Source: Nostoc sp. PCC 7524
GTDB lineage: Bacteria > Cyanobacteriota > Cyanobacteriia > Cyanobacteriales > Nostocaceae
Length of the DNA: 64,000 bases
Reading direction: 5' to 3'
NCBI RefSeq assembly: GCF_000316645.1
Contig: NC_019684.1
Coordinates: 3,439,501 to 3,503,500, forward strand
Under the pieces are notes generated by a model that made no database searches, had not been told where the DNA came from, and was given only the letters and a program-made list of their open reading frames with translations. The translations under genes were made by a program, and so were the position numbers. This document shows positions 1-31,700 of the stretch, in pieces (within the stretch, counting starts at the first letter, position 1; each line of letters begins with the position of its first letter).

Positions 1-3000
1 TAGGGATTATCGCTGCCCAAAGTATTGGGGAACCTGGAACCCAGCTCACCATGCGGACATTCCACACTGGGGGTGTATTCACAGGGGAAGTCGCCCAACA
101 AGTACGTTCCAAAATCGATGGTACTGTCAAGCTACCTCGCAAACTGCGGACAAGACCCCATCGTACCCGTCACGGTGAAGATGCCTTGTATGTCGAGAGC
201 AACGGGACTTTGATTCTAGAACCCCGTAAAGATGGGGCAGAAACTCCAGTTCCCCAAGAAATTAATGTTACCCAAGGTTCAACATTATATATAGTTGATG
301 GGCAGCAGGTAAAAGTGGGTCAGTTACTGGCCGAGGTTGCCCTCGGTGGACGCACCACCCGTGCCAACACAGAAAAAGCTGTAAAAGATGTGGCATCTGA
401 CTTAGCTGGTGAAGTTAAATTTGCTGAGGTAGTTCCGGAACAAAAAACCGATCGTCAAGGCAACACCACCACTACAGCCGCACGGGGTGGTTTGATTTGG
501 ATTTTGTCTGGGGAGGTTTATAACTTACCACCAGGGGCAGAATTGGTGGTCAAGAACGGCGACTCCGTAGCAACTAACGGCGTGTTGGCGGAAACCAAAT
601 TAACTACCTTACATGGTGGTGTAGTCCGTTTACCAGAGGCTACCCCAGGCAAGAGTACCAGGGAAATTGAAATTATTACGGCTTCTGTGGTTTTAGACCA
701 AGCCACAGTTACCGTCCAAAGTTCCCAAGGGCGCAACAACTACCTCATCACCACAGGTAATAACCAAGTATTTAACTTGCGGACTACTCCAGGCACAAAA
801 GTTCAGAATGGTCAAGTAGTAGCTGAGTTAATTGATGACCGCTATCGTACCACCACAGGTGGATTGCTCAAGTTTGCTGGTGTAGAAGTCCAGAAAAAAG
901 GCAAAGCCAAACTAGGTTACGAAGTGGTGCAGGGAGGTACACTGTTATGGATTCCCGAAGAAACCCACGAAGTCAACAAAGATATCTCCTTGTTGTTGGT
1001 AGAAGATGGTCAGTATGTCGAAGCTGGTACTGAAGTTGTTAAAGACATTTTCTGCCAAAACAATGGTGTAGTTGAAGTCACCCAGAAAAACGACATTTTG
1101 CGGGAAGTTGTGGTTAAGCCTGGGGAACTGCTGATGGTAGATGATCCAGAAGCAGTAATCGGTAAAGATGACACCATCCTCCCCGCAGGTGAAGAATTAT
1201 TGGGACGAGTCTTCAATGAACTGCGTTATATCCAGTATGTGGAATCACCAGAAGGCCCAGCATTGTTAAGCCGTCCCGTGGTAGAGTTTGCTGTACCTAC
1301 TAATCCTGATGTACCATCTACTACATCTGTCAGCCAACAAACCGGACGTTCAATTCAAATGCGGGCAGTACAGCGACTGCCTTACAAAGATTCTGAACGT
1401 GTCAAGTCTGTGGAAGGTGTAGAACTGCTACGTACCCAATTAGTTTTGGAAATTGAGCAGGAAGGTGAACAAGAACATAATGCTTCACCTCTAGCCGCAG
1501 ATATTGAATTAGTACCGGATGCTGAAAATCCAGACATTCAACGCTTACAGTTGGTAATTTTGGAGTCCTTGGTGATTCGGCGCGATATTGCTGCTGATGC
1601 GACTCAAGGCAGTACCCAAACCAGTCTGGAGGTAAAAGACGGAGACACTATCGCACCTGGTGCTGTGGTAGCACGTACCCAAATCTTGTCTAAAGAAGGT
1701 GGGATTGTGCGGGGCGTACAAAAGGGTACTGAAGCAGTGCGTCGTTGTTTAGTGCTGCGCCACAATGACATGGTAACGCTGAATGCTACCGCCCAACCCA
1801 CCGTCAAAGCAGGTGACTTAATTGTTGCAGGTGCAGCAATTGCTCCTGGTGTCTTCGCTGAGGAATCTGGCCAAGTTGTGTCAGTGAAAAATGCTAATGC
1901 GGCATCTGCTGGTAGTGAATCAGCACTCAGCGTCCAAAATTACTCAGTCACAATCCGTGTTGGTCGTCCCTACCGAGTTAGTCCTGGTGCAGTGTTACAG
2001 ATAGAGGACGGCGACTTGGTACAACGGGGCGATAACTTGGTACTGTTGGTATTTGAAAGAGCCAAAACCGGAGACATCATTCAAGGTTTGCCCCGGATTG
2101 AAGAACTATTAGAAGCCCGGAAACCCAAAGAAGCTTGTATTCTGACAAAACGGGGCGGGGAAGTTAAGGTTGTTTACGGTGATGGTGATGAAGCGATCGC
2201 AATCAAGGTCGTAGAATCAAATGGCGTAGTCACCGACTACCCACTTGGCCCTGGTCAAAACCTCATCGTACCTGATGGCTATCATGTATCAGCCGGTCAA
2301 CCAGTCACTGATGGGCCTTCTAATCCCCACGAAATTCTGGAAATCTTCTTCAGTTTGGGTTCAGAAGAAGGAGTTTATGCCTGTGCCAGCCATGCCTTAC
2401 AAAAAGTACAGACATTCTTAGTGAATGAAGTACAGATGGTATATCAATCTCAAGGCATTGACATTGCCGACAAGCACATCGAAGTGATTGTACGCCAAAT
2501 GACCAACAAAGTGCGGATTGATGATGGTGGTGACACTACTATGCTTCCCGGCGAGTTGGTGGAATTGCGCCAAGTTGAGCAGGTGAATGAAGCTATGGCT
2601 ATTACTGGCGGTGCGAGAGCGCAATATACTCCAGTATTGTTAGGGATTACCAAAGCATCCTTGAACACTGACAGCTTTATTTCTGCGGCATCCTTCCAAG
2701 AAACAACACGGGTTCTCACGGAAGCAGCCATTGAAGGTAAATCCGATTGGTTGCGTGGTTTGAAAGAAAACGTGATTATCGGACGTTTGATTCCGGCTGG
2801 TACTGGTTACAACACCTATGATGAACCCGGTATGATCGAAGATTATGCAACTCTGGATACCACCAGTGTCTTAGATGAAACCGATGATCCACTGGATATG
2901 GTGTTAGATGACCGCACAGCTCGCGCCTACAATTTAGATGCTCCTACTTTGACAGAAAGCGGATTTGGTAATCGGCGGTCAATTTTAGATGACGACGAGT

Positions 3001-3089
3001 TGATTGCAGATGAAGTTCATGACCTCGTAGATGAAGACGAAGGTGATGATTACGAGGAAGATGACGAAGACGATTACGATGATGATTAA
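1..3089 (+). CDS. rpoC2: RNA polymerase beta' subunit, C-terminal part (RpoC2), 5' end outside window
   Basis: The reading frame is open from base 3, so the gene is cut by the window edge; the first ATG (base 51) is internal. The first codons read [20 protein letters not shown], the bridge-helix/trigger-loop signature of the beta' C-terminal half. About 600 residues of repeated small beta domains (many short V-x-x-G-x-x-V segments) follow before the conserved block [12 protein letters not shown] and [17 protein letters not shown]; this fits the large SI3 insertion that cyanobacterial RpoC2 carries in the trigger loop. The C-terminus is an acidic tail ending [11 protein letters not shown]. It forms part of the transcription enzyme with RpoC1, RpoB and RpoA. 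A strong terminator lies 30 bp downstream, so rpoC2 is the last gene of its operon. Confidence 0.97.
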
Positions 3090-3118
3090 TACCAAAAAGT
3101 AAGAGTGAAAATTTCCAG

Positions 3119-3150
3119 GGCAGAAGAATTAATTCTTTTGCCTTTTTTTT
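3119..3150 (+). terminator. Rho-independent terminator of rpoC2
   Basis: A 12-bp stem with one G-U pair (GGCAGAAGAATT pairing with AATTCTTTTGCC) is followed directly by eight T residues. Confidence 0.9.
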
Positions 3151-3323
3151 GACTACAGATTGGTAAAAAGCTTGTACTCTAAGACCAAAAACATTATTAC
3201 CTGCGGGTGGGTAAATATTTTCTAGAGATTATCCGACTATCACGATCCCCAGAAGGTCTTAAAATATTGTTAATTTCCCCCAACTCCCTAGACCTTCAAA
3301 TCACAAGTATCACCCAAAACACT

Positions 3324-4913
3324 ATGGCTATTGGCTACGTCGCGCTTGTACTCCACGCCCACCTGCCTTTCGTTCGTCACCCAGAAAGTGACTATGTACT
3401 GGAAGAAGAATGGCTGTATGAAGCTATTACCGAAACATACATTCCCTTACTGAAAGTATTTGAAGGCTTAAAACGAGACGGCATCGACTTTAAAATCACC
3501 ATGAGTATGACACCGCCGCTTGTGTCGATGCTCCGTGATCCTTTGTTACAAGAACGTTATGATGCCCACTTAGCCAAACTAGAAGAACTAGCGGAACTGG
3601 AAGCCGAACGGAATGTCCACAACGGGCATATTCGTTACCTAGCCGAACACTACGCCACTGAGTTTAACGAAGCGCGTCAGATGTGGGAACGCTACAACGG
3701 TGATTTGGTGACGGCTTTTAAACAGTTCCAAGATACTAACAACCTGGAAATTATCACCTGTGGTGCAACTCACGGTTATTTGCCGTTGATGAAAATGTAT
3801 CCGCAAGCTGTGTGGGCGCAAATTCAGGTAGCTTGCGAACACTACGAACAAACTTTTGGTCGTCCACCCAAAGGTATTTGGTTGCCAGAATGCGCCTACT
3901 ATGAAGGTTTAGAGCGAATGCTGGCAGATGCCGGGTTGCGTTATTTCCTGACTGATGGGCATGGTATTCTTTATGCACGTCCTCGTCCCCGCTTCGGTAC
4001 TTACGCCCCGATTTTTACAGAAACTGGTGTGGCGGCTTTTGGTCGGGATCATGAATCTTCACAACAGGTATGGTCTTCTGAGGTGGGCTATCCCGGTGCG
4101 GCAGAATATCGGGAATTTTATAAAGATTTGGGCTGGGAAGCTGAGTATGAGTATATCAAGCCCTACATTATGCCCAACGGTCAACGTAAAAATACGGGGA
4201 TTAAGTATCACAAAATTACTGGACGGGGATTAGGTCTATCAGATAAGGCACTCTATGACCCATATTGGGCAAAAGAAAAGACAGCAGAACACGCTGCTAA
4301 CTTTATGTATAACCGCGAACGTCAGGTAGAGCATCTCTACGGCATTATGCAGCGTCCGCCAATTATTGTTTCGCCCTACGATGCTGAGTTATTTGGGCAT
4401 TGGTGGTATGAAGGCCCTTGGTTTATTGATTACCTGTTCCGCAAGTCATGGTATGACCAAGGAACCTATAACATGACTCACTTGGCTGATTATTTACGGG
4501 CAGAACCTACTCAACAAGTGTGTCGTCCTTCCCAATCAAGTTGGGGTTACAAGGGTTTCCATGAGTATTGGTTAAACGAAACCAACGCCTGGATTTACCC
4601 ACATTTGCACAAAGCTGCTGAACGTATGATTGAAATTTCTCATCTGGAACCAGAGGATGAATTAAGCTGGAAGGCACTCAACCAAGCAGCGCGGGAATTA
4701 TTATTGGCACAATCTTCAGACTGGGCGTTTATTATGCGGACAGGAACAATGGTTCCTTATGCTGTGAGACGGACGCGATCGCACCTCATGCGCTTTAATA
4801 AGCTGTACGAGGATGTGAAAATCGGCAAAATTGATAGCGGTTGGTTAGAAAAAGTGGAATTAATGGATAATATCTTCCCTAACATTAACTATCGGGTTTA
4901 TCGCCCTTTGTAG
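3324..4913 (+). CDS. GH57 glycogen/alpha-glucan branching enzyme
   Basis: 529 residues from the ATG at 3324; the frame is open upstream to 3207, but the family N-terminus (MAIGYVALVLHAHLPFVRHP) starts here. The HAHLPFVRHP motif is the first conserved GH57 region. E189 in WLPECAY is the expected nucleophile and D353 in SPYDAELFGHWWYEG the expected acid/base. The C-terminal block (SSDWAFIMRTGTMVPYA) matches the helical domain of the branching-enzyme subgroup. It is a cytoplasmic enzyme that introduces alpha-1,6 branches during glycogen synthesis. Cyanobacteria usually also have a GH13 GlgB, so this is probably a second branching enzyme. Assignment to branching rather than amylase activity rests on family resemblance. 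Confidence 0.9.
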   Translation: MAIGYVALVLHAHLPFVRHPESDYVLEEEWLYEAITETYIPLLKVFEGLKRDGIDFKITMSMTPPLVSMLRDPLLQERYDAHLAKLEELAELEAERNVHNGHIRYLAEHYATEFNEARQMWERYNGDLVTAFKQFQDTNNLEIITCGATHGYLPLMKMYPQAVWAQIQVACEHYEQTFGRPPKGIWLPECAYYEGLERMLADAGLRYFLTDGHGILYARPRPRFGTYAPIFTETGVAAFGRDHESSQQVWSSEVGYPGAAEYREFYKDLGWEAEYEYIKPYIMPNGQRKNTGIKYHKITGRGLGLSDKALYDPYWAKEKTAEHAANFMYNRERQVEHLYGIMQRPPIIVSPYDAELFGHWWYEGPWFIDYLFRKSWYDQGTYNMTHLADYLRAEPTQQVCRPSQSSWGYKGFHEYWLNETNAWIYPHLHKAAERMIEISHLEPEDELSWKALNQAARELLLAQSSDWAFIMRTGTMVPYAVRRTRSHLMRFNKLYEDVKIGKIDSGWLEKVELMDNIFPNINYRVYRPL

Positions 4914-4997
4914 TCAGTGGTGTTAGCGGTAGGGGGGCGTTTAGTCGGTGCTGAGTAGTGAGTAAAAATATTTATTTGTAGCACAGCAAGGCATGAG

Positions 4998-5066
4998 ATG
5001 ACTGTTTCCAATTCTCCAACAGTTCACAAGCCAGAATATAACTATTTTGACTTCTTCTACTTCTAG
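4998..5066 (+). CDS. Possible 22-residue micro-protein
   Basis: ATG to TAG encodes MTVSNSPTVHKPEYNYFDFFYF. An AAGG sequence lies about 8 bases before the ATG, and a terminator-like hairpin starts 13 bp after the stop. The last nine residues are strongly aromatic. There is no membrane segment, and I do not recognise the sequence. It could be a real short gene or a chance frame in the tail of the upstream transcript. Confidence 0.3.
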   Translation: MTVSNSPTVHKPEYNYFDFFYF

Positions 5067-5078
5067 TAGTTTAAAAGC

Positions 5079-5108
5079 AAAACCCCCAAGTTTCGTGCTG
5101 GGGGTTTT
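5079..5108. terminator. Bidirectional terminator
   Basis: Stem AAAACCCCCA / TGGGGGTTTT with a 10-base loop. It sits between a plus-strand gene and the converging minus-strand gene ending at 5140. It would end the minus-strand transcript best, where further T residues follow. Confidence 0.75.
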
Positions 5109-5139
5109 GTCGTTATGGAGTTAACTAGCATTTTAACTG

Positions 5140-5367
5140 TTATCGAGGCAAAGTCTGGCTAGTATAAGCATCCATTGCATAGGCTGGGGTGCGATCGCTG
5201 TAATCTATTTCCATGCCAGTAATAGACTTAGCCAACTTTTCAAAAGACTCTGAACGCCAGTTACGCTCATGAATTGGCTTTTTCTGCTCTCCTAGGAAGT
5301 AAGCTAGAGAACCTAAAACAGAAGCGGCAACCCAACCTAAAACTAACACTGCAAATAATATAGTCAT
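5140..5367 (-). CDS. Small single-helix thylakoid protein, Psb35-like
   Basis: 75 residues. One hydrophobic helix at about residues 2-25 (MTILFAVLVLGWVAASVLGS) is followed by a polar tail with EQKKPIHERNW. This length and pattern resemble the cyanobacterial Psb35 (Ssl2148-type) protein associated with photosystem II CP47; that identification is from memory of the family and is not certain. A GAGG ribosome-binding site lies about 7 bases before the ATG. The gene stands alone, upstream of a bidirectional terminator and downstream of a palindromic repeat. Confidence 0.6.
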   Translation of the reverse strand: MTILFAVLVLGWVAASVLGSLAYFLGEQKKPIHERNWRSESFEKLAKSITGMEIDYSDRTPAYAMDAYTSQTLPR

Positions 5368-5514
5368 GGCAAACCTCTTTTTTATACTTTTGTAACTTTA
5401 TGTAAATAAATATAACTTTATTGCAACAAAGTTTGCAATATACTCTGAGGTGTGTATACCGATCTGGCAGGTAGGGTATTTCCTACCGTCGCCATCATAT
5501 TTAATATGGTTCAG

Positions 5515-5541
5515 TAGAGACGTTGCATTGCAAAGTCTCTA
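5515..5541. repeat. Palindromic TAGAGAC...GTCTCTA repeat
   Basis: Outer arms TAGAGAC and GTCTCTA enclose a near-palindromic core. The same outer arms recur at 9683-9712, 22975-23005 and 50615-50644. Confidence 0.6.
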
Positions 5542-5580
5542 TAAGCGTTATTGTTTTGGCACATTATCTTATGGTTATAA

Positions 5581-5610
5581 AAAATAAAAAAGACAGGCTA
5601 TTGCCTGCCT
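5581..5610 (-). terminator. Rho-independent terminator of petC-petA
   Basis: On the minus strand, stem AGGCAGGC / GCCTGTCT with loop AATA is followed by a long T-rich run. It lies 26 bp past the petA stop. Confidence 0.9.
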
Positions 5611-5635
5611 TGGATGTATTGATTTAGCAGAGAAT

Positions 5636-6637
5636 TTAGAAATTCATTTCAGCAGCTTGGACTTTTTCCACCTGCTTCTTCTTGAGAACTAGCATTACTT
5701 GAGCTAACATTACCAGCGCAATGAAAGCAATCAGCCAGCCAACTCTGTTGGCATCTTGCAACACGATTTCTGCATCTTGTTGACCGAAGCCACCAACGTT
5801 GGGATTATTGGTCAAAGCATCGCCAGCTGTCACAGCTTGCCCTTCCGAAACAATCAATTCTGGGCCTGCGGGAATGGTATCACTTACCACTTCACCAGAT
5901 TCAGTTTTGATGTCTACTAGATATTTAACGCTACCGGTTTCATCTTCTTCTTTAGCAATCTTGCTAATTGTGCCTGTAGCGGCAGCACTATATACGTTGT
6001 TGTTGCTCTTTTCGCCTGTAGGATAAACTTGTCCACGGCCTCGGTTACCACCTACATGAACTGAATATTTACCGAAGTGGATGCTTTTATCGTTGGCAGG
6101 GTTGGGAGAAAGAACTGGGAAGACAATTTCCTGATATTGTTCGCCAGGTAAGGGGCCAACGATGACGATGTTCTCTTTATCTTCGCCGTAGGGTTGGAAG
6201 TAAACATCGCCAACCTCTTCCTTCATTTCTTCAGGAATGCGGTCTGCGGGTGCAATTTTGAAGCCTTCAGGCAACATTAACACAGCACCAACGTTTAAGC
6301 CGACTTTAGAACCGTCAGCGCCTACTTGTTGCACGCTGGTGTCGTAGGGAATTTTAACGACGGCTTTAAATACTTGATCAGGTAGTACGGATTGGGGAAC
6401 TTCTACTTCTGTGGGCTTGGCTGCTAAGTGGCAGTTAGCGCACACGATTCTGCCTGTAGGTTCGCGGGGGGTTTCTGGGTAAGTTTGCTGCGCCCAGAAA
6501 GGATAAGCAGCAGCCGATTGGGGCAGGGCTAGATCGCTGGTAAAGAAAATAGTTACAGTAGCGATCGCTATGAGCAATGCTTTCATCATCGCTCTAACAC
6601 TGCGAGTTAACCTCGCTGTTACACAAGCATTTCTCAT
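5636..6637 (-). CDS. petA: Cytochrome f of the b6f complex
   Basis: 333 residues from the ATG at 6637; the frame extends 12 codons upstream, but the family start ([17 protein letters not shown]) is here. A signal peptide ends at AAA-YPFWAQ, leaving Tyr45 as the N-terminal heme ligand. Heme c is attached at C66-A-N-C69-H70. A C-terminal transmembrane helix ([19 protein letters not shown]) is followed by a short stromal tail ending AAEMNF. It passes electrons from the Rieske protein to plastocyanin or cytochrome c6 on the thylakoid lumen side. It lies downstream of petC on the same strand with a repeat-filled 115-bp spacer, the usual petC-petA operon order. Confidence 0.98.
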
Positions 6638-6660
6638 CTCTATAAGGGCAACGATTAATT

Positions 6661-6748
6661 TAGTCAAGAGCAATAGTCAAGAGTCAATAGTCAAGAGTCA
6701 ATAGTCAATAGTTTTTACTATGGACTTTGGACTTTGGACTATTGACTA
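6661..6748. repeat. Heptameric tandem repeats (STRR) inside the petC-petA spacer
   Basis: Repeats of AGTCAATAGTCAAG type, then three ACTTTGG-type units, then ATTGACTA. The outer TAGTCAATAGT and ACTATTGACTA segments can pair, so the petCA transcript could fold here. Confidence 0.85.
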
Positions 6749-10187: not shown

Positions 10188-10545
10188 TAGAGAATATTCA
10201 TCTGTTCAGGGTACTGAAAATTTGAGGATAGCCAAAACCACAAATAAACTGTACCTAAGAGTACCTTTTTATTTGTGAAATATTTTTAATATTCATAACA
10301 ATACATTGGGAAAAAACCGGGATTTTGACAATTTGTAATTCTCGGCTCATCTCGACTGCTCTCATCACAGCGAGTTATAACATTGGTGTGTAAAATCACA
10401 ACAATATACCCAAAATACCCGGAATACTGCTAAATTATTGAGTAATTTGTGCGACAAGTGCTGAAATAAAGCATAAATTAACAAGAATAAACATATTCAA
10501 TCAGCAGACTTTGTTCTCCCACTTCCTGAGTGAATGCGATTAGTT
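10188..10545. other. Intergenic region upstream of the ATPase gene
   Basis: AT-rich, about 360 bp, with no gene seen. It must hold the promoter of the ATPase-STAND pair, but I see no clear -35/-10 pair or ribosome-binding site. Confidence 0.5.
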
Positions 10546-11883
10546 ATGCCCCTAGATTTAGAAAAATTTTATCAGGCTTGCAATCCCAGCAGACCTCTAA
10601 TGATGGGAAATTCTACCGATCGCAGGTATTATATCGATTTTGCGTCAGTGCGGGGCGGCAAAATTATTGAGGCTTTGCAGCGCACGATTACGCGCATTTC
10701 ACCGAACGCACCCACCTGTCAGTTATTTACCGGACACCTGGGTTGTGGGAAATCAACAGAGTTGCTGCGACTCAAGGCGGAGTTAGAAGAACAGCAATTT
10801 CATGTCGTTTATTTTGAGTCTACCCACGTCTTAGAAATGGCGGATGTGGATGTGACTGATATTTTACTGGCGATCGCAGGGCAGGTGAGCGAGAGTCTGG
10901 AAGCGATGAAAATCCGGCTCAAACCCAATTATTTCACTAAATTGTTTAGTGAAGTGGTGGATTTTCTGCAAACACCAATTGAGTTGGGAGTGGAAGCGGA
11001 ATTGTCGGTGGGGATTGCCAAAATTACTGCCAAAACCAAAGAAAGTCCCCAACTGCGCCGCCGCTTGAGAGACTACCTCGAACCCCGTACCCAAAATATT
11101 TTACAAGCGATTAATCAAGAACTATTAGAACGCGCTAACAAAGAACTTAAAGCCTTAGATAAAAAAGGCTTAGTAGTCATCGTGGATAATTTGGATCGGG
11201 TAGCAATTCGCCCTTTACCATCGGGGCGATCGCTGCCAGAATATTTATTTATCCAACGGGGTGAGCAGTTACGTAAACTCAACTGTCATGTAGTTTACAC
11301 CATTCCCTTGGCTTTAACTTTCTCCAACGATAGCGCCGAACTGCAACATCGTTTAGGGGGTGGGGTTGCACCCAAAGTTTTACCCATGATACCTGTACGG
11401 TTGCGCTCTGGAGATATTTTCACTCAGGGATTGGAACTAATGCGCCAAATGGTTTTAGCGCGAGCCTTCCCTGACATCGAGCCGAGCGATCGCTTAAGCT
11501 TAATTACAGAAGTGTTTGATAACTTAGAAACACTAGATCGATTGTGCCTGATCAGTGGTGGTCATGTGCGCGATTTGTTGGGGTTGCTGTTTGACTGTCT
11601 GCGCGAACAAGATCCACCCTTTGGACGGGAGTGTTTGGAGTTGGTAATTCAAAGACAACGGGACTATCGCGCTAACCCTATTGACACCCACGAATGGGAG
11701 TTAATCTTCCAAGTAGTGAAGCAACAGAGGGTGAGAGGTGATATAGAATACCATACCTTATTGCGGAGTTTGTTTGTCTTTGAATACCGCGACCATCAAG
11801 GAGCTTGGTTTGCCATCAACCCAGTTTTAGCCGAGACACCCAAATTTAAGTCATGGTTGAAGGACAACTACCAGCAGATATAA
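10546..11883 (+). CDS. P-loop ATPase (AAA/STAND-like), partner of the WD40 protein
   Basis: 445 residues from the ATG at 10546 (MPLDLEKFYQACNP); an ATG four codons upstream at 10534 is also possible. Walker A is GHLGCGKST, about 65 residues in; Walker B is LVVIVDNLDR near residue 225. The C-terminal third (SGGHVRDLLGLLFDCL and following) looks like a helical/winged-helix lid of AAA or Orc-type ATPases. No transmembrane segment is seen. It overlaps the next gene by 31 bp, so the two are translationally coupled and probably act together. I recall similar proteins in other filamentous cyanobacteria but know of no assigned function. A regulatory or defence NTPase is an inference from architecture only. 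Confidence 0.8.
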   Translation: MPLDLEKFYQACNPSRPLMMGNSTDRRYYIDFASVRGGKIIEALQRTITRISPNAPTCQLFTGHLGCGKSTELLRLKAELEEQQFHVVYFESTHVLEMADVDVTDILLAIAGQVSESLEAMKIRLKPNYFTKLFSEVVDFLQTPIELGVEAELSVGIAKITAKTKESPQLRRRLRDYLEPRTQNILQAINQELLERANKELKALDKKGLVVIVDNLDRVAIRPLPSGRSLPEYLFIQRGEQLRKLNCHVVYTIPLALTFSNDSAELQHRLGGGVAPKVLPMIPVRLRSGDIFTQGLELMRQMVLARAFPDIEPSDRLSLITEVFDNLETLDRLCLISGGHVRDLLGLLFDCLREQDPPFGRECLELVIQRQRDYRANPIDTHEWELIFQVVKQQRVRGDIEYHTLLRSLFVFEYRDHQGAWFAINPVLAETPKFKSWLKDNYQQI

Positions 11884-14800
11884 GAGCAGCCAATGAGCGA
11901 GCCTTACAAAGTTTATGGAGAGCCATTACTCTTTCTTGTGGCCATTTTTCTGTGGCTCTAGTTTGCTGTAACTATCGAGTGCTGCAACAGCGCATCCTGC
12001 AACAACTCGATAAATTAGCGGCTGGGGTGGCTCGCATCCAAAAAGTTGTTTTACCCCACAATACGAGAAGTCTTTACACCGCCATCCATTTGCAGATGCC
12101 GAATGATGGTGTAGCGCCATCGGCTCTGATGATTTTAGGTTTAGAAACTGTAGATGAAATTGACGATTTATTAAGTTCAATTAACCATATTCGGGATGAA
12201 TTTCCTAAGCGTCACTCATTTCCGATGATTTTTTGGGTAAATGACGAAGTTTTACAAAAAGTTGTGCGTTTAGCTCCCGATTTTGCTAGTTGGGCAGCCA
12301 CACCGATTCGGTTTGAAATGACCACACCAGAATTGCAGCAATTTCTGCAACAAGAAACAGACTCTTTATTTAATCGAGTATTAGCCAACGATACAGCACA
12401 ACACCGCCCACCAAAATTTACAGAAAATTATGCCACCCTAGAACAAGTCTGGGAACATAGCGATGAACTCCATTGTGCCATTAATGAACTGCACGATCGC
12501 GGCATTACTTTAGAGCCAGCATTACACGCCAGTTTAAAGTTTGTCTTTGGCTTAGATGATTATGTCACCGATCGCATTCATTATGCCCTAAGTAATTTTC
12601 AGCAAAGCTTAAAAATTTGGCAAAAGCTCCTAGAGAGGAGAGATGCTGGGGATATAGAGGATGAGGGAGTATTTTCTTCCCCATCTCCCCCCACTCCCCC
12701 ATCTCCCCCACTCCTCCGACAAGGAGTATTACTTTTTTACATCGGCCTGTGTTACTTTCGTCTTGCTGAACAAAATCAGCTAGATAACCGTCGCTATTGG
12801 GAAGCTGCCAAATCTTGCTTTCAAGAATGCTTACAGATTTTACAGTTAGCGCGACGACCAGATATTGCAGCAGAATTTATTGGTCAACTTGCCGAAGTTT
12901 TAGAACATCTGCAAGAGTGGCCAGAATTGCAGCAGGTGGCGCGAAACTCCCTAGAGTTCCATCAAATCTACGGTAGCCAAATTCAACTGGCTTGTGACTA
13001 CGGTTTTTTAGCACAGGTGGCGCTACAGGAATCACGGTGGATACAAGCTAGTATTTTAGCCCACGTTGCACTCTTGAAGTTAGCTGAAGCACAAAACTGT
13101 GACAGTGACCCCTATCATTGTTTGTTTCCCTTGTTGTTAGCGCAGATTTATTACTTAGTGTTAGCTAAAGCCCAGCACAAGATAGGTGAGGAAACAATTG
13201 CACGAGAGTATTTAGAAAAAGCTGCCAAAGAACTACCAACAGCATTAGAAAACAGCGCCCATCAATACGATGCCCATCGTTATATTAGAATGCTGCGGAC
13301 ATTGCGATCGCTCTACTTTGAAGCCGGTCGTTATTTAGAAGCCTATTGCATTCGTCAAAAACGCCGCTCTGTAGAACAGCAATATGGCTTTCGGGCGTTT
13401 ATTGGTGCAGGGCGCTTGCAACCCCAAAGACAAGCTACGAATCCGGCTTTGTTATCACCTTCGGGAAGTAGTAGTGTCGCTTTAGAAATTGCTGCTTCTG
13501 GTCGAGAACGAGATATTAATAATTTAATTGGCAGAATTAGCCGCGCCGACCAAAAACTCATCGTTATACATGGCCCCTCTGGCGTGGGCAAAAGTTCCAC
13601 CGTCACCGCCGGTTTAGTTCCCGCCTTACAAAATCGCGCCATTGGTGATCAAATTGCTGTACCTGTGGTGCTGCAAGTTTATACAGAGTGGGTGCGAGAA
13701 TTAGGCAAATCTTTGAGTGTTGCTATTGCTCATCTTAATGGAGAGGGAGCGATCGCACCGGAAAATTCACCCGTTACTACCACCGAAATTCTGCAAAAAT
13801 TACGTGAAAATGCTGATAACCATCTGATTACAGTGTTAATTTTTGACCAGTTTGAAGAATTTTTCTTTGGTTATAGCGATCGACAACAGAAACAAGCATT
13901 TGATCAATTTGTCAGTGATTGTTTGAATGTATCATTTGTCAAAGTTATTCTTTCCTTACGAGAAGATTATTTACATCGGTTGTTAGAGTTTAAGCATCTT
14001 TCCAACCTAGAAGCAATTAATAATAATATTCTCGATAAACAGATTCGTTATCAATTAAATAATTTTTCACCCGGATATGCCAAAGTAATTATTCGGAAAT
14101 TAACAGAACGTTCTCAATTAAGTTTAGAACCAGATTTAATTGAGGCTTTAGTCGCAGATTTATCCACAGAACTAGGAGAAGTGCGCCCTATTGAGTTACA
14201 GGTAGTTGGCGCACAAATTCAAGATGAGCGCATTACTACTTTAGAACAATATCAACCTTATAGACCGAATAAACTCATAGAAAGATATATCAAAGAACTC
14301 ATTAAAGACTGCGGACCCGAAAACGAGCGAGCAGCTTTATTAGTCTTATATTTACTCACAGATGAAGCCAACAAACGACCATTTAAAACCCGTGTTGAAC
14401 TAGCAACTGAACTAGCAGAATTAGAAGATGCCAGCAAATTAGAATTAGTCTTAGATATTTTAGTTAGCTCTGGCTTAGTAGTATTATTTCCCGATGTCCC
14501 AGAACGTTATCAACTGATTCATGATTATTTAGTAGACTTAATTCGTTACTTGCAACAACAAGAATCAAGCCTACAGGCGCAACTCAATCAACTCCGCCAT
14601 AAAGTTGAACAAAGTCAAACAGAAATTGAACGACTCAAAAGCGAACTCCGGCAAAAAAAGCAGCAAGCCAAACTCACAGACACTCAAATACCATCAGGAT
14701 TAGATTTAGTTACCGAATTGCGAGAGTTACGCAAACGCGAAGAACTCAGTCAATTAGAAATGGAACAATTACGGGCGGAACTGAAAGAAAAAGAATTAAC

Positions 14801-16934
14801 AGCCCAACTGGCAGAAAGCCAAAAACAACAACGCCTCAGTGAAGCTAAATTAAATCGTTCCCTCAAAATTGCCTTGACTGCTTCATGTTTGGCAATCTTG
14901 GGTTTAAGTATCTCTATAATTACAGCCGTAGATAATGAAATTAAAACCCTCAGTGTTTCTAGTGAGGCCTTATTTGCATCTCAAAAAGGTATTGATGCTC
15001 TCAAGGAAGGTATCAAAGCCGGCAGAAAACTACAACGGGCTGTTTGGGTAGATGCTTACACTAGGGAAAAAGTCCAGACAGCACTGTATCAGTCCGTTGC
15101 TGGAGTGAGAGAGTATAACCGCTTAGAAGGACATATCGCGGGTGTAAATAGTGCTACATTCAGCCCTGATGGCTCATTGATTGCTTCCGCTAGTGCAGAT
15201 AATACCGTCAAACTCTGGCGTGCTGATGGTAGCTTCATTGCCAATTTGTCACAGCATAGTGATGTTGTGAATAGCGTGAGTTTCAGTCCTGACAGTCAAA
15301 TAATTGTATCTACCAGTCAGGACTCTACAGTGAAACTTTGGACTCGCCAGGGTAAATTGCTACATACCCTAGAAGACCATCAAGATGGGGTAAATAGTGC
15401 CAACTTCAGCCCTGATGGACAGAACATAGCTTCAGCCAGCACCGACGAAACCGTGAAAATCTGGAGTCGGGACGGTAAATTAATCAAAACTTTGATTGGA
15501 CACCGTGATGCAGTTTTAGGTGTGGCTTGGTCGCCTGATGATCAGAAACTAGCTTCTGTAGATACTGATAAAACTATCAAATTATGGAGTCGGGAAGGGA
15601 AATTACTCAATAGTTGGAAGGGACATGATGATGCCATTTTAGGTTTAGCATGGTCAACCGATGGTCAAATTATTGCCACTGCCAGTTTAGACAAAACTAT
15701 CAAACTCTGGAGTATGCAAGGGAAACTACAAAAAACCTTATCAGGTCATACTGCGGGAGTCACCAGCGTTAGTTTTAGTCCCAATGGTCAAACTATTGTT
15801 TCTGCCAGTATCGACGAAACCATGAAACTGTGGAGTCCTCAAGGTCTATTGTTGGGAACATTGAAAGGACATAGTGGCTGGGTGAATAGTGTGAGTTTTA
15901 GCCCCAACAGTCGCAGCTTAATTTCTACCAGTCGTGACAAAACAGTAAAACTCTGGCGTTGGGACGAAGTGTTACAGCGTCACCCCAAAACTGATGGTAA
16001 TAACTGGGTAACTAGCATTAGTTTCAGCCCCGATGGTCGTTATTTAGCGGCTGGGAATCGAGACAAAACTATCAAAATTTTGAGTCGAGACGGGCAATTG
16101 TGGAAAACTTTTCCTAAACATGAAGATGAAGTTTGGGGTATAGCATGGTCAACCGATGGTCAGATCATTGCCTCAGCTAGTAAAGATAAAATGGTCAAGT
16201 TGTGGTCTCCAGATGGTCAATTACTTCAGACCTTAGTAGGTCATGAGGATACAGTCTTCGGTGTAGCTTGGTCGCCAGATAGTCAGATGTTGGCATCAGC
16301 TAGTAAAGACAAAATGGTGAAGTTGTGGAGTCGAGATGGTAAACTTCTTTACACCTTGGTAGGTCATGAAGATGGTGTAAATTGGGTAAGTTTTAGCCCT
16401 GATGGTCAATTACTAGCTTCCGCCAGTGATGACTTAACAGTAAAAGTCTGGAGTCGAGACGGTAAACTTCTGCATACCCTCAAAAACCACAGTCGCCGCG
16501 TTAACGGGGTAGCATGGTCACCTGATAGTCAAGTTTTAGCTTCAGCCAGTATTGATAGCACAGTCAAACTCTGGAGTCGGGACGGTAAGCTGTTAAAAAG
16601 TCTGTCTGGAGAGGGCGATAATTTTATCAGTGTGAGTTTTAGTCCCAATGGTAAGACTTTGGCAGCTAGTAGTGATGATAAAGTCAAGCTTTGGAATCGG
16701 GAAGGAACTTTACTAATAGCTTTGAAGGGAGACAAAAAAGAATTAACCAGTGTGAGTTTTAGTCCTGATATGCAGACAATAGCGGTTGGTAGTGGCAATG
16801 GTCAAGTAATTTTACGTAATTTAGATGATATTAAGTTAGATAAGTTACTGACACAGGGTTGTGATTTTCTCCAAGATTATTTCCAGACTAACTCAAAATT
16901 AACTCCGAGCGATCGCGCTTTATGTCCTAAATAG
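11853..16934 (+). CDS. Large TPR / nSTAND-like NTPase / transmembrane / WD40-repeat protein
   Basis: 1693 residues. Order: residues 1-220, a domain with VALVCCNYR and ALMILGLE strands resembling a P-loop core but with no Walker A; about 225-560, TPR-like helices broken by a Pro/Ser tract (SSPSPPTPPSPP); about 570-900, an nSTAND-like NTPase with Walker A HGPSGVGKSS and Walker B VLIFDQFEEFF; about 900-1000, coiled coil; about 1004-1025, one hydrophobic helix (ALTASCLAILGLSISIITAV); 1088-1655, 14 WD40 repeats (GH...FSPDG...SAS.D.TVKLW), enough for two seven-bladed propellers. The end (LLTQGCDFLQDYFQTN) is common in cyanobacterial WD40 proteins. Lys/Arg before the helix and acidic residues after it predict that the propellers lie outside the cytoplasm. 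Such STAND proteins act as signal-triggered switches; target and trigger are unknown. Confidence 0.85.
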   Translation: MVEGQLPADIRAANERALQSLWRAITLSCGHFSVALVCCNYRVLQQRILQQLDKLAAGVARIQKVVLPHNTRSLYTAIHLQMPNDGVAPSALMILGLETVDEIDDLLSSINHIRDEFPKRHSFPMIFWVNDEVLQKVVRLAPDFASWAATPIRFEMTTPELQQFLQQETDSLFNRVLANDTAQHRPPKFTENYATLEQVWEHSDELHCAINELHDRGITLEPALHASLKFVFGLDDYVTDRIHYALSNFQQSLKIWQKLLERRDAGDIEDEGVFSSPSPPTPPSPPLLRQGVLLFYIGLCYFRLAEQNQLDNRRYWEAAKSCFQECLQILQLARRPDIAAEFIGQLAEVLEHLQEWPELQQVARNSLEFHQIYGSQIQLACDYGFLAQVALQESRWIQASILAHVALLKLAEAQNCDSDPYHCLFPLLLAQIYYLVLAKAQHKIGEETIAREYLEKAAKELPTALENSAHQYDAHRYIRMLRTLRSLYFEAGRYLEAYCIRQKRRSVEQQYGFRAFIGAGRLQPQRQATNPALLSPSGSSSVALEIAASGRERDINNLIGRISRADQKLIVIHGPSGVGKSSTVTAGLVPALQNRAIGDQIAVPVVLQVYTEWVRELGKSLSVAIAHLNGEGAIAPENSPVTTTEILQKLRENADNHLITVLIFDQFEEFFFGYSDRQQKQAFDQFVSDCLNVSFVKVILSLREDYLHRLLEFKHLSNLEAINNNILDKQIRYQLNNFSPGYAKVIIRKLTERSQLSLEPDLIEALVADLSTELGEVRPIELQVVGAQIQDERITTLEQYQPYRPNKLIERYIKELIKDCGPENERAALLVLYLLTDEANKRPFKTRVELATELAELEDASKLELVLDILVSSGLVVLFPDVPERYQLIHDYLVDLIRYLQQQESSLQAQLNQLRHKVEQSQTEIERLKSELRQKKQQAKLTDTQIPSGLDLVTELRELRKREELSQLEMEQLRAELKEKELTAQLAESQKQQRLSEAKLNRSLKIALTASCLAILGLSISIITAVDNEIKTLSVSSEALFASQKGIDALKEGIKAGRKLQRAVWVDAYTREKVQTALYQSVAGVREYNRLEGHIAGVNSATFSPDGSLIASASADNTVKLWRADGSFIANLSQHSDVVNSVSFSPDSQIIVSTSQDSTVKLWTRQGKLLHTLEDHQDGVNSANFSPDGQNIASASTDETVKIWSRDGKLIKTLIGHRDAVLGVAWSPDDQKLASVDTDKTIKLWSREGKLLNSWKGHDDAILGLAWSTDGQIIATASLDKTIKLWSMQGKLQKTLSGHTAGVTSVSFSPNGQTIVSASIDETMKLWSPQGLLLGTLKGHSGWVNSVSFSPNSRSLISTSRDKTVKLWRWDEVLQRHPKTDGNNWVTSISFSPDGRYLAAGNRDKTIKILSRDGQLWKTFPKHEDEVWGIAWSTDGQIIASASKDKMVKLWSPDGQLLQTLVGHEDTVFGVAWSPDSQMLASASKDKMVKLWSRDGKLLYTLVGHEDGVNWVSFSPDGQLLASASDDLTVKVWSRDGKLLHTLKNHSRRVNGVAWSPDSQVLASASIDSTVKLWSRDGKLLKSLSGEGDNFISVSFSPNGKTLAASSDDKVKLWNREGTLLIALKGDKKELTSVSFSPDMQTIAVGSGNGQVILRNLDDIKLDKLLTQGCDFLQDYFQTNSKLTPSDRALCPK

Positions 16935-17846: not shown

Positions 17847-19193
17847 CTAACTACCAGTTAGCGATCGCAATTGTGCCGGGAATCTGGCGTTTTGCAAGGC
17901 TTGAACGGTAATCCGAGCATCTTGGACGCAAAATTGCCACCCTAAGCGGACTAATCTACGTGAGTTGTCAGATTGTATAATTCCGATCACGGGCATTTTG
18001 GCTTTTTCTTTGTCCCCTGAATGTTCCTGTAAAATTGTTTTCAAGCGATGCAGTTCTTCGATGTTACTCGCTTGTTGGGGATTTAATTCCACCATAACCA
18101 TTTGCACTGTTTCTACTGGTTCTGCATCTTCAACAATCAATTGCACTTGTTCGTCTCGTCGGTCTACTTTACCCCAAATAATTAATCTGGCATCAACTTG
18201 CAATAGAAAACTTATGCGTTCGTAAGTTTTGGGAAACACCACGGCTTCTGTTTGCGAGGTTAAATCTTCGATTTGCAAAATCGCCATAGCATCGCCTTTC
18301 TTAGTCATCACCTTTTTGACACCGTTGAGCATGATCACCACACATAGTTTTGTGTCATCTCGCTGTTCATTCAACTGTGAAAGATTAATTGGTGTTAAAA
18401 GTGGTGCTACTTGCCTTAAAGATTTTAATGGATGGTCGGAAACGTAAAAACCTAATAGTTCTTTTTCCATCCGTAATTTTTCCTGCGGTGGATAATCATT
18501 CACTGGTTTGGCTTTGGGTGCAGAGTCAAAAGCGTTATTAGTTTTCTTCTCACTGGTGGCAGCGACACCTAATAAATCAAACAGATTTCCTTGGCCAGTG
18601 GCTCTATCTTTAGCACGGGACTGCGCCCAATCGTAAACTAATTCTAAATCTTGGATTAATTGGTGACGATTCGCTTCAATTTTGTCAAAAGCTCCGCAGT
18701 AAATCAATGATTCTAAAGTACGACGGTTGACAGTGCGAAGATCAACGCGATCGCAAAAATCAGCCAGAGATTTAAATACTCCACCCTCATCCCTAGCTTC
18801 CAAAATAGCAGCGATCGCATTCTGTCCTACATTTCGCACAGCCGAAAATCCAAATAAAATCTTTCCCGCCGCAGGTGTAAAGTCCACTCCAGAGCGATTA
18901 ATATCTGGTGGTTCTATTTGAATATTCATACTCAGACAGGTAGAAATATATTTCTGTACCTTGTCTGTGTCACTACTGTTAGCCGTCAGTAGCGCCGCCA
19001 TGTATTCCAATGGGTAATTAGCTTTGAGATAGGCAGTTTGATAAGTTACATATCCATAGGCGGTTGAGTGGGATTTATTAAAACAATTAGAAGCAACTAA
19101 ACCGTTTCTGATGACAAAATTATGGTCACGCTCCACCCCGATGTCATAGACATTTTCTTTACCTATATACTTACGTGTAACAACTTTAACCAT
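17847..19193 (-). CDS. dnaE: DNA polymerase III alpha, C-terminal half with DnaE split C-intein
   Basis: 448 residues from the ATG at 19193; the frame is open 32 codons further upstream, but that stretch is repeat-derived and unlike the intein. Residues 1-36 are the C-intein: MVKVVTRKYIGKENVYDIGV, then ERDHNF, ending ASN36. Cys37 starts the C-extein (CFNKSHSTAYG), encoded at 19085-19083. The protein joins in trans to the N-half made from a distant gene to give replicative DnaE. Extein features are the end of the polymerase core, a helix-hairpin-helix region (PDINRSGVDF, GLSAVRNVG-like) and an OB fold (KVMTKKGDAMAILQIED). It is transcribed divergently from gatA. Split dnaE is a hallmark of many cyanobacteria. 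Confidence 0.97.
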   Translation of the reverse strand: MVKVVTRKYIGKENVYDIGVERDHNFVIRNGLVASNCFNKSHSTAYGYVTYQTAYLKANYPLEYMAALLTANSSDTDKVQKYISTCLSMNIQIEPPDINRSGVDFTPAAGKILFGFSAVRNVGQNAIAAILEARDEGGVFKSLADFCDRVDLRTVNRRTLESLIYCGAFDKIEANRHQLIQDLELVYDWAQSRAKDRATGQGNLFDLLGVAATSEKKTNNAFDSAPKAKPVNDYPPQEKLRMEKELLGFYVSDHPLKSLRQVAPLLTPINLSQLNEQRDDTKLCVVIMLNGVKKVMTKKGDAMAILQIEDLTSQTEAVVFPKTYERISFLLQVDARLIIWGKVDRRDEQVQLIVEDAEPVETVQMVMVELNPQQASNIEELHRLKTILQEHSGDKEKAKMPVIGIIQSDNSRRLVRLGWQFCVQDARITVQALQNARFPAQLRSLTGS

Positions 19194-19374
19194 AATCTTT
19201 GAAACCTGATCAAGAGAATAAATAAATCTACGTGATATACAGAATTTTAGACTAGGCGAGGTGGGAGTGAGGAGAGACAAGGGAGACAAGGTAGAAGTTT
19301 TTGCCTAGTTCCCAATCCCCAATCCCCCCCAATATGTACTAAAATCAATGACTTGAGTCACTGAGAGAGTAATC

Positions 19375-28308: not shown

Positions 28309-28775
28309 ATTTGATATCAGGTGGGTAATACCTACCTGAATTTATTAGATTTTCTTAATATTTAAAAAGTCAATTTTTCCTCTAAAAAAGTAAAAAATCT
28401 ATATTTTTCTAGAAGTAATGTTCCCAATTAATAACTTTAGATAGATGACAAATTGCAGTATCACTTGTTTTGTGTATGACATCTTCATAGAATCTTTAAA
28501 ATAATAAAAATCATCAAAAATATTCATCTTTTGGTTGTTTTTCCAGCAATTTTACTAAACAATCTTGCTTAGTGTTGAAATTTACCAAGCGTAATTAATC
28601 AGGCAAAGTTGCAATTCTCGTAGGGTGTAATTAGCAAAAAATTAGCTAAATTTCTCTATTAATTTAGCAAACTTAACACTAGCAAGTATCTTACAGATAA
28701 AAGATTTTCTTGATTAATGACATTGGCAGTTTCTGATGGCAAAGATTCCTGACCACAAGCATTTTGATCAAAGCT
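28309..28775. other. Upstream region of the first DUF4347-RTX gene
   Basis: About 470 bp, AT-rich, with no gene or clear repeat seen. It presumably carries the promoter of the large gene. Confidence 0.5.
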
Positions 28776-31700
28776 ATGTTTACAACAAATAATTCCAATG
28801 ACAAACTATCTCAGGCAGTCACTGAAGGTAGTACAAACCGTGGCATTTTGTTTATGGATGGGGCAGTAGAAAATTACTCCAGTTTAGTAACAGGAGTCTT
28901 ACCAGGATTTGAGGTGATTATCCTTGATTCTACACAGGATGGAGTAGAGCAAATTACTCAAGTATTGTCACAGCGTCAGGGAATTGACAGCGTTCACATC
29001 GTCTCACATGGCAGTTGTGGCAGCGTGCAGTTAGGAACGGCTAACCTCAGTTGGGATACCCTGTCTTTCTACGCCAGTCAACTGCAAAGTTGGCAAAATG
29101 CCCTCACAGATGCAGCGCAAATCTTGTTATATGGTTGCAATGTAGCAGCCGGTGCAGTTGGTAAAGCATTTGTACAGAGGTTGAGTGAACTAACCTCTAG
29201 TGTAGTCGCTGCTTCGGATGACTTGACTGGCAATGCGGCGTTGGGTGGTGACTGGGAGTTAGAAGTGCAGACTGGTTGTGATGCTGTGACATTGGCATTT
29301 AGTCAAGCCAGCATAGAGGCTTATGAGGGAGTATTGAATTCTCAACCATACTTAGTAACCGATATCAATCTTGGTAATTTTTTCTCTCCCAACTATTTGA
29401 CCAATGTTAATGGCACACTCTACTTTGAGGCATATACCCCCACCTACGGTAGAGAACTATATCGCTTAGACAACACCACAGGCAATGCTGTACGCCTGAC
29501 TGATATTAATCCTGGTGCACGAAATTCCAGTCCCTACAACCTGACCAACATCAATGGCACACTCTACTTTGTGGCAGAAAACCGTACCTATGGTAGAGAG
29601 TTATATCGGTTAGACAATACCACAGGCAATGCTGTACGCCTGATTGATATTAATCCTGGTGCGGGAAGTTCTCGTCCCGAAGCTTTGAGATACATCAATG
29701 GCACACTCTACTTTGAGGCATATACCTCCACCTACGGTAGAGAATTATATCGATTAGACAACACCACAGGCAATGCTGTACGCATTACTGATATCAATCC
29801 GGGTGCAGGGGATTCCAATCCCTACGAGCTGACTGAAATCAATGGCGTACTCTACTTTAGAGCATATACCTCCACCTACATCTATGACTTATATCGGCTA
29901 GACAATACCACAGGTAAAGCTGTACGCGTTACTGATAGCAATACTGGTGATGGGTTGTCCTTTTCCCAAGAGCTGACCAACATCAATGGTACACTCTACT
30001 TTACAGCAGTAAATACACTAGATTCCTATCGTAATTTTAAGTTATATCGAATAGACAACACTACAGGCAATGCAGTCGTTATTGATATCAATGCTGGTGC
30101 TAACTCTTCCGATCCCTATCGGCTGACCAATATCAATGGCACACTGTACTTTACGACATCTTATGGCATATATCGAATAGACAACAGCACAGGCAATCCT
30201 GTACCTGTTACTGATAACAATTTTGGTAATGTGTCTGCCGCTCCCTACCAGCTGATCTACATTAATGGCACAGTCTACTTTAGGGCATATAACTTCACCT
30301 ATGGCCATGAGTTATATCGAGTAGACAACTCCACAGGTAAAGCTGTACTTGTCACTGATATCAATCCTGGTGTTGAGTCTTCCCATCCCGACACCCTGAC
30401 GAATATCAATGGCACACTCTACTTTACAGCATCTACCCCCACTTTTGGTAGAGAGTTATATCGAGTAGACAATTCCACAGGTAAGGCTGTACTCGTCACT
30501 GATATCAATCCTGGTGTTGAGTCTTCCCATATCGACAACCTGACGAACATCAATGGCACACTCTACTTTACGGCATCTACCCCCACTTTTGGTAGAGAGT
30601 TATATCGAGTAGACAACTCCACAGGTAAGGCTGTACGCATTACTGATATCAATCCGGGTGCAGGGGATTCCTATCCCGGCTACCTGACCTACTTCAATGG
30701 CATACTCTACTTTAGAGCATCTGACTCTACTCTTGCCTATCAATTGTGGGCTTTACCAATTGAGGCTGCCAATCAGAACGAAATTACAGGCACATCAGCA
30801 TCAGAAACCCTCAACGGTACTGCCAATCCAGATATTATCTATGCTTTAGAAGGCGATGACAAGTTGTATGGCTTTGTAGGAAATGATACCCTGTATGGCG
30901 GCACTGGTAACGATTGGCTAGATGGTGGTGCTGGCGCAGACGAGATGATTGGCGGTAGTGGCAATGATATTTACTTTGTAGACAATCCACAAGACACCAT
31001 CATCGAAGATGCAAATGGCGGCATAGATGCAGTTATCTCTACTATCAGTTGGGAATTGGGCAATCACCTAGAGAATTTAACACTCACAGGCAACAATACT
31101 ATTAACGGTACTGGTAATAGTGGTAATAATGTCCTGATTGGTAACTCCGCAGCCAATATTTTGTCAGGTGGTGATGGCAATGATTGGCTTTCTGGTGGTG
31201 CGGGAAATGATACCTTGTATGGGGAAACTGGTAATGACACCCTGTATGGTGGCACTGGTAACGATTGGCTCGATGGTGGTGCTGGTGCAGACGAGAAGAT
31301 TGGCGGTAGTGGCAATGATATTTACTTTGTAGACAATCCACAAGACACCATCATTGAAGAGGCAAATGGTGGCATAGATGCAGTTATCTCTAGTATTAGT
31401 TGGCAATTAGGCAATCACCTAGAGAATTTAACACTCACAGGCAGCAATGCGATTAACGGTACTGGTAACGGTGGCAATAATGTCATCATTGGTAACTCGG
31501 CAGCCAATATTTTGTCAGGCGAGAATGGCAACGATTGGCTGTCTGGGTTGGGTGGAAACGATCGCCTGTTGGGTGGCAATGGTAATGATACTCTCGATGG
31601 TGGTACTGGTGACGATTGGCTCGATGGTGGTGCTGGTGCAGACGAGATGATTGGCGGTAGTGGCAATGATATTTACTTTGTAGACAATCCACAAGACACC

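Follow-up and report, generated by a model that had tools for sequence, protein, structure and literature searches.

As a rule, STAND ATPases are treated as switches that work in the cytosol, and the described systems closest to the gene pair reported here are STAND proteins that end in WD40 repeats. According to PMC9218822, WRAP makes up the C-terminal portion of a STAND protein, and the gene for this protein is coupled to one for a TIR-STAND protein; PMC6805158 gives 2ymu as the WRAP structure. Cyanobacterial caspase proteins with 14 WD40 repeats are listed in the accessible part of PMC2853523, and a section of PMC10907252 has some STAND sensors predicted to be periplasmic. The pair studied here lies on the forward strand of a 64,000-nucleotide stretch of Nostoc sp. 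PCC 7524 (NC_019684.1, positions 3,439,501 to 3,503,500; "the window", whose numbering is used throughout). It consists of P1, a 449-residue KAP/ORC-like AAA+ P-loop ATPase (10534..11883), and P2, a 1693-residue protein with an N-terminal domain (N-domain), TPRs, an nSTAND1 NTPase, a predicted transmembrane (TM) helix and WD40 repeats (11853..16934). The pair is real, conserved and undescribed in the literature searched, and is a variant of the coupled STAND-WD40 layout; the available parts of the open-access papers searched held no description of the P1-P2 pair or of a transmembrane STAND-WD40 receptor. Our explanation, which we hold at even confidence, is that P2 is a membrane-spanning outside-in STAND receptor which recruits P1, a trans-acting AAA+ ATPase, via its N-domain.

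In the PDB, the WD40 part of P2 matches 2ymu best. The TIR-STAND/STAND-WRAP operon of the Npun_R6612 type resembles the locus in having an ATPase gene just upstream of a STAND protein; in WRAP-type loci the two frames overlap in L267-L269 (starts not set) and stand 0.7 kb apart in L270. Four relatives' loci share the STAND domain, helix, stalk, 14 WD40 blades and C-terminal cysteine pair. They differ in the NTPase (AAA_35 in L267), in the partner (TIR-AAA_35 in L267 or CHAT-TIR-AAA_35 in L270, the two partners scanned, whereas P1 has no TIR match in Pfam) and in their near-identical blades, the blades in the window having diverged to a median identity of only 0.46. WRAP itself is ruled out as a member of the P1-P2 family, as matches to the N-domain, P1 and the window nSTAND are absent from the four WRAP-type loci. 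A scan of 217 family genomes did not turn up the Npun_R6612 locus itself (16 candidates scored per genome; the best reached 88% identity in a match covering part of the query).

Another similar protein lies in the same genome. L310 (G000:C2:2822500-2831000, frame 1553-6688) has the nSTAND1, helix, stalk, 14 blades and tail cysteine pair, and its alignment with P2 spans the NTPase, helix and stalk (4e-12), but a caspase domain replaces the N-domain and TPRs, and it is not among the N-domain matches of the window genome. From its sequence L310 is a candidate for a membrane receptor whose caspase would lie in the cytoplasm. Because the WRAP-type loci and L310 share this layout, the membrane-propeller part seems to recur while the cytoplasmic effector side is swapped (caspase, TIR partner, or N-domain/TPR with P1), and N-domain/TPR together with P1 may, by position, hold the effector or adaptor place. 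The five NB-ARC-WD40 proteins fetched from the window genome, which have the Apaf-1 layout, also join a STAND ATPase to 12-14 blades, but have no TM helix, Cys-rich blades and another tail. MoxR-vWA ternary systems with iSTAND, as far as the consulted part of PMC7159879 describes them, likewise combine an ATPase with a protein carrying a non-catalytic module and a sensor, but neither a MoxR nor a vWA gene is among the 12 window neighbours scanned.

Open reading frames were read from stop to stop, and start positions are approximate. The longest P1 frame opens with the ATG at 10534; 10546, the start taken by an earlier sequence-only reading of the window, is a later in-frame ATG. That reading's frames, their strand and the 31-bp overlap between the end of P1 and the start of P2 (11853..11883) are otherwise as it gave them. 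Pfam finds KAP_NTPase in P1 at 1.8e-9, with 37.8 bits against a cut-off of 20. KAP NTPases (PF07693) reportedly have TM segments inserted in the NTPase domain, a feature that we know from the title of a 2004 paper by Aravind, and P1 differs in having no such segments. No TM-like stretch was found in it (the best 19-mer has a Kyte-Doolittle hydropathy, KD, of 1.19 with 3 charges), and its AlphaFold2 (AF2) model is confident (predicted local distance difference test, pLDDT, 92.6; predicted template modelling score, pTM, 0.91) and free of long lone helices of the inserted-TM kind. Among 49 sequences the invariant residues are G67, G70, G72, K73 and T75 in the Walker A motif GHLGCGKST (residues 67-75, 10732..10758), D218 in the Walker B motif VVIVDNLDR (residues 214-222, 11173..11199), and G342, G343 and R346 in SGGHVR (residues 341-346, 11554..11571), which we take to be sensor-2-like. 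The fold neighbours of the model are ORC, TnsC and STAND proteins, including CED-4 and plant NLRs.

P2 begins with the N-domain (about residues 1-177, 11853..12383), an uncharacterised alpha/beta domain without a P-loop that was delimited by alignment and AF2. Next come a TPR solenoid (about residues 203-510, 12459..13382) and the nSTAND1 NTPase (residues 550-918, 13500..14606; Pfam 6.3e-32, 112.1 bits against a cut-off of 27.1), with Walker A GPSGVGKS (residues 574-581, 13572..13595) and Walker B FDQFEEFFF (residues 664-672, 13842..13868); both ATPases of the pair thus retain both Walker motifs. A long helix or coiled coil (about 892-1002, 14526..14858; AF2 helices 892-942 and 952-1042) leads to the predicted TM helix (residues 1006-1024, 14868..14924), a post-membrane stalk (about 1025-1080, 14925..15092), 14 WD40 blades (15093..16814, where Pfam gives 14 WD40 stretches) and a C-terminal tail with the stop (16815..16934), in which Cys 1670 and 1691 form a predicted disulfide. 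The TPRs, the nSTAND-like NTPase with its FDQFEEFF Walker B, the coiled coil, the hydrophobic helix and the 14 repeats had all been read from the sequence before, and Pfam, motifs and AF2 bear them out. The stalk has a median identity of 0.80 to the window among orthologues and can be aligned with that of L310 and, weakly, with that of the WRAP-type L267. Foldseek and VIA results for an 1100-residue model of P2 are dominated by TPR and STAND rows. The same reading had called the N-domain ATPase-like, and here it is not supported: beyond the predicted alpha/beta fold, searches by sequence and profile gave no evidence for it, with no profile similarity to P1 and no credible Pfam match (best 0.013 among 52 members scanned). 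A known Pfam domain is ruled out on those figures, and the idea that the N-domain is P1 in degenerate form is rejected at an hhalign probability of 0.6. The best PDB relative by sequence (0.006) is an implausible stretch of OHCU decarboxylase.

The coupling of the two genes is conserved among filamentous cyanobacteria. In a survey of 146 genomes (E<=1e-20 for P1-type ATPases, E<=1e-5 for the N-domain), P1-type ATPases were found in 38 genomes and the N-domain in at least 37, all 37 of them among the 38 with P1 (matches listed). At least 113 of the 135 listed P1 matches are followed within 3.5 kb by an N-domain frame on the same strand; among the matches listed, it lies upstream in 3 of 135 and on the opposite strand in none. 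The named Nostocales loci, which are the best 80 of 242 relatives, have P2 behind P1 in 79 cases, and the contig of the exception ends 10 bases past P1; by first ATG the frames overlap by 22-43 bp in 77 of these 79. Among the P1 proteins listed, the closest are 84-95% identical and come from Nostoc, Trichormus and relatives. P1 and P2 distances correlate with r=0.88 over 60 pairs, against a maximum of 0.28 in a permutation control that ignores the species tree. The sequence-only reading had proposed a coupling of two ATPases to a sensor-like array of repeats, to be given up if the genes never occurred together in homologues; they do occur together, and the pairing, the concordant distances and the 79 of 80 orthologues agree with the proposal.

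Linkage is broken in eight genomes, which have a long P2 without an adjacent P1 and, elsewhere, a strong P1 match without a long partner. This lone P1 has no N-domain neighbour in five of them (G093, G123, G038, G110 and G112) and stands beside a solo N-domain of 164-174 aa in the other three (G042, G033 and G129). G093/G123 and G129/G033 are mutual nearest neighbours in both P1 and P2, the unlinked P2 of G110 sits at the end of a contig and could reflect a broken assembly, and five of the eight cases are included in the distance correlation.

What follows the N-domain varies. The 112 partner frames listed comprise 6 of less than 300 aa, 50 of 300-899, 15 of 900-1499 and 41 of 1500 or more; the analysis of P2 loci took 82 open frames from the 150 listed N-domain matches, for the most part in descending order of length. 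Beside P1 the rear of the protein is an nSTAND1-WD40 part in many frames (L125 is an example), a TPR array in L145, L151 and L141, and an nSTAND1 without a recognised rear domain in L134. In L126 (1513-5772), also beside a P1-type ATPase, N-domain, TPR and nSTAND1 are fused to PAS-HisKA-HATPase-REC, and a clear TM helix was not found in the linker. Two frames with no P1 beside them, L128 and L127, join the N-domain to WD40 repeats without nSTAND and to a long TPR array, respectively. The N-domain is informative as the shared part of these otherwise different partners. The window genome (6.7 Mb) has four P1/N-domain pairs, of which three contain nSTAND, the helix and WD40 and the fourth has TPRs alone, and besides these two solo N-domain frames, L154:4252-4749 (179 aa) and G000:C2:3353674-3354150 (197 aa), with no P1-type match beside either; similar solo frames are present in other genomes. 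L130:2316-6089, on contig C20 of G024, has a tandem double N-domain behind two tandem P1-type ATPase genes. N-domain/TPR proteins are also found beyond cyanobacteria, for example in a Methylovulum record.

Charge and cysteine content both point to a membrane pass. Residues 1006-1024 are the most hydrophobic 19-mer of P2 (KD 2.18, uncharged), with 5 K/R in the preceding 15 residues and 1 after. The sequence-only reading had staked its helix on structure prediction, and AF2 puts the stretch within the long helix 952-1042 and not in a soluble domain, with a pLDDT below 50 at 1006-1021 and secondary structure alone inspected. The linker after nSTAND was scanned in 63 frames, 62 of them readable. 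An uncharged 19-mer of KD >=1.5, our strict TM filter, is present in 44; in 40 of these the 15 residues preceding the helix are richer in K/R than the 15 following it, with the reverse in 2 and equal numbers in 2 (means 4.4 before and 2.0 after). Across all 62 linkers the K/R bias is for this orientation in 52, against it in 5 and equal in 5.

The cysteine evidence is independent of the charge bias. P2 has cysteines at 13 positions between 29 and 820 and at 1012, 1670 and 1691, and none in the 574 residues of the WD40 part. Among 49 long P2 proteins (at least 10 blades, L128 counted apart), cysteine makes up 1.15% of the first 900 residues vs 0.09% of the WD40 part, and 48 have the C-terminal pair; L082, which lacks it, has a very short tail. 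The figures for 69 orthologues are 1.10% and 0.02%, with the tail pair in 66. The control L128, from another genome and without nSTAND or helix, has 0.70% cysteine in its blades and has lost the tail pair. The window genome offers a contrast of the same kind, compared post hoc among the WD40 proteins fetched. Its five long NB-ARC WD40 proteins without a helix (12-14 blades, 560-582 WD40 residues each, a different tail) have 16, 17, 15, 26 and 15 cysteines in that part (89/2860), and its five nSTAND1/AAA_35 WD40 proteins with a helix (13-14 blades) have 0, 0, 0, 1 and 0 (1/2846); Fisher's test gives p 8e-26 with residues taken as independent. All five helix-bearing proteins carry the tail cysteine pair; they include two from outside the N-domain family (L305:818-4393 and L310) and one, L111, with a weaker helix (best uncharged 19-mer 1.46). 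A single membrane pass and an outside location of the predicted P2 propellers are thus strongly supported by sequence features. The sequence-only reading had placed the propellers outside the cytoplasm and called this unusual for STAND proteins; the placement agrees with the K/R bias, the cysteine depletion, the tail pair and the in-genome contrast, and the peculiarity falls away with five nSTAND1/AAA_35 proteins of one genome sharing a helix and Cys-poor WD40 repeats.

Under the receptor explanation, P2 would be a single-pass membrane receptor of the STAND class. Its N-domain, TPRs and nSTAND1 NTPase would lie in the cytoplasm, one helix would cross the membrane, and two seven-bladed WD40 propellers would stand outside the cytoplasm (in the periplasm or thylakoid lumen), with the C-terminal tail oxidised. 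Binding of an outside ligand would be passed through the stalk and coiled coil to nSTAND1, which would change its nucleotide state and oligomerise, and N-domain/TPR would thereby be exposed or clustered. P1, the ORC/TnsC/STAND-clade AAA+ protein encoded by the overlapping upstream gene, would then be recruited to N-domain/TPR and relay the signal. The architecture and the conserved coupling of the genes are observed; binding of P1 to the N-domain, oligomerisation of nSTAND1 and the direction of signalling are what we infer from them. Signalling is our best guess for the function of the pair, and the histidine-kinase version L126 hints at signalling rather than only suicide.

A wider statement, for which we see the balance as level, is that multicellular cyanobacteria may have two classes of STAND-WD40 receptor and that the window pair may be an outside-in apoptosome-like relay. 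The first class would be cytosolic, with NB-ARC and Cys-rich propellers, and the second membrane-spanning, with nSTAND1 or AAA_35 and Cys-poor, disulfide-tailed propellers outside. The window pair would be a member of the second class with a docking N-domain of its own, from an undescribed family, and a dedicated ORC-like AAA+ partner. Should the propellers be outside, cyanobacteria would be using an apoptosome-type machine as a receptor that spans the membrane, and its ligand would be expected beyond the cytoplasm. An AAA+ ATPase paired via a recurring N-domain would also be a definable module, open to searches and assays.

Several observations weigh against the receptor explanation. Among the matches listed, 22 of 135 P1 matches have no N-domain neighbour. 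Calling the N-domain the docking part is partly circular, and its constancy is partly built in, because the partners were found through it. No fusion of P1 with the N-domain was found in 81 loci, and gene fusion was dropped as evidence for their binding. The strict TM filter is failed by 18 of the 62 linkers, and in L096 the helix is weak (KD 1.31) and the blades are the richest in cysteine (0.94%), although the tail pair is intact. Low cysteine alone is no proof of an outside location, since it is also seen in some WD40 proteins of the window genome that have no clear helix (L306 1/290, L311 0/291, L316 1/461). An output enzyme is not evident among the 12 neighbouring genes scanned.

One alternative is an anti-phage or suicide system, in which the WD40 repeats would sense invaders and the two ATPases would trigger cell death. 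The wider kinds of protein are tied to conflict systems in the parts of PMC8195603 and PMC7159879 consulted and, for WRAP, of PMC9218822. Blades with a median identity of 0.85-0.93 occur in 6 of 49 long P2 proteins (L078, from the window genome, rounds to 0.85), and seven plasmid records have P1-type genes, with 60-80% identity in three and below 60% in four. The next gene in the three plasmid records opened encodes an N-domain protein of 1844-2059 aa, and in L320 (NZ_AP026076.1, conjugative plasmid pREC1) a P1-P2 pair stands between two tyrosine recombinase genes. The L320 P1-type gene and its 1920-aa N-domain/WD40 partner overlap by 4 bp, with a HicA/HicB set alongside. PADLOC gives a weak PDC-S20 match over part of P1 (1.5e-7) and, on P2, WD40-region or weak matches only. 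Against this, the window orthologue looks like a steadily kept gene. Its blades number 14 in 66 of 69 orthologue sequences and 13 in 3, the WD40 stretch keeps to 572-592 residues, and among 68 full orthologues the median identity to the window is 0.70 for WD40, much like the N-domain (0.73), with 0.75 for TPR and 0.84 for nSTAND. The median ratio of nonsynonymous to synonymous substitution rates (dN/dS) to the window is highest for WD40 at 0.13, with 0.08-0.12 for the other regions; these are rough values, with 49-62 of 68 comparisons per region usable and a median dS of 1.2-1.5. Selection is purifying on average, and positive selection on the propellers was not seen on average. Such a pattern would suit a sensor that has been retained together with its ligand rather than a hypervariable sensor. 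Of the 67 loci that extend over more than 3.8 kb upstream, 43 have tatC there on the opposite strand; it was not found at that place in the remaining 24, among them the four best matches (L175-L178). No P1 match was found in 50,697 phage records at 1e-5, and the 12 neighbouring genes scanned (petA, petC, tatC, part of dnaE, an amidase, RodZ and others) are ordinary, bar one weak restriction-endonuclease-like match. A defence switch, as the sequence-only reading had it, is not supported for the window orthologue by its constant blades, low dN/dS and ordinary neighbours, and we think it unlikely.

Equally improbable in our judgement is that the working machine is P1, as an ORC/TnsC-type AAA+ ring that remodels DNA or protein, with P2 only as its membrane anchor and gate, which would mean membrane control of transcription, replication or protein turnover. 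The ORC and TnsC fold neighbours fit such a machine, but CED-4 and plant NLRs are also among them, and P2 has intact NTPase motifs of its own. Less probable still is a soluble Apaf-1-like switch, with the helix buried or only touching the membrane and the propellers in the cytosol. The WD40 repeats of Apaf-1 are cytosolic, the weak linkers would suit this, and AF2, which models no membrane, cannot decide; yet the cysteine depletion, the tail pair and the K/R bias speak against it, as do the difference from the NB-ARC WD40 proteins of the window genome and the long lone helix in the AF2 model. That P1 and P2 are mere neighbours without a functional link is very improbable: some genomes have them at separate loci, but the pairs in the survey, the named orthologues and the concordant distances oppose it, and unlinked P1 and P2 are kept within the same genomes.

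In the surroundings of the pair, the weak restriction-endonuclease-like match (0.0073, below the cut-off) belongs to a 181-aa frame on the reverse strand downstream of P2 (17084-17629). The frame at 17847-19289, also on the reverse strand, resembles a C-terminal portion of DnaE, with Pfam matches to HHH_6 and OB-fold, and is preceded in the same reading frame by a putative split-intein C fragment. Near a paralogous P1-P2 pair in L012, 3-4 kb downstream, are a vWA gene (13109-13870) and a PP2C phosphatase gene (14084-14866). The only RNA element found in the window is a tRNA-Glu. Farther along the window are two adjacent large DUF4347 proteins (28764-32327 and 32554-37674), one with ELWxxDGT and RTX repeats and the other with cadherin-like and RTX repeats.

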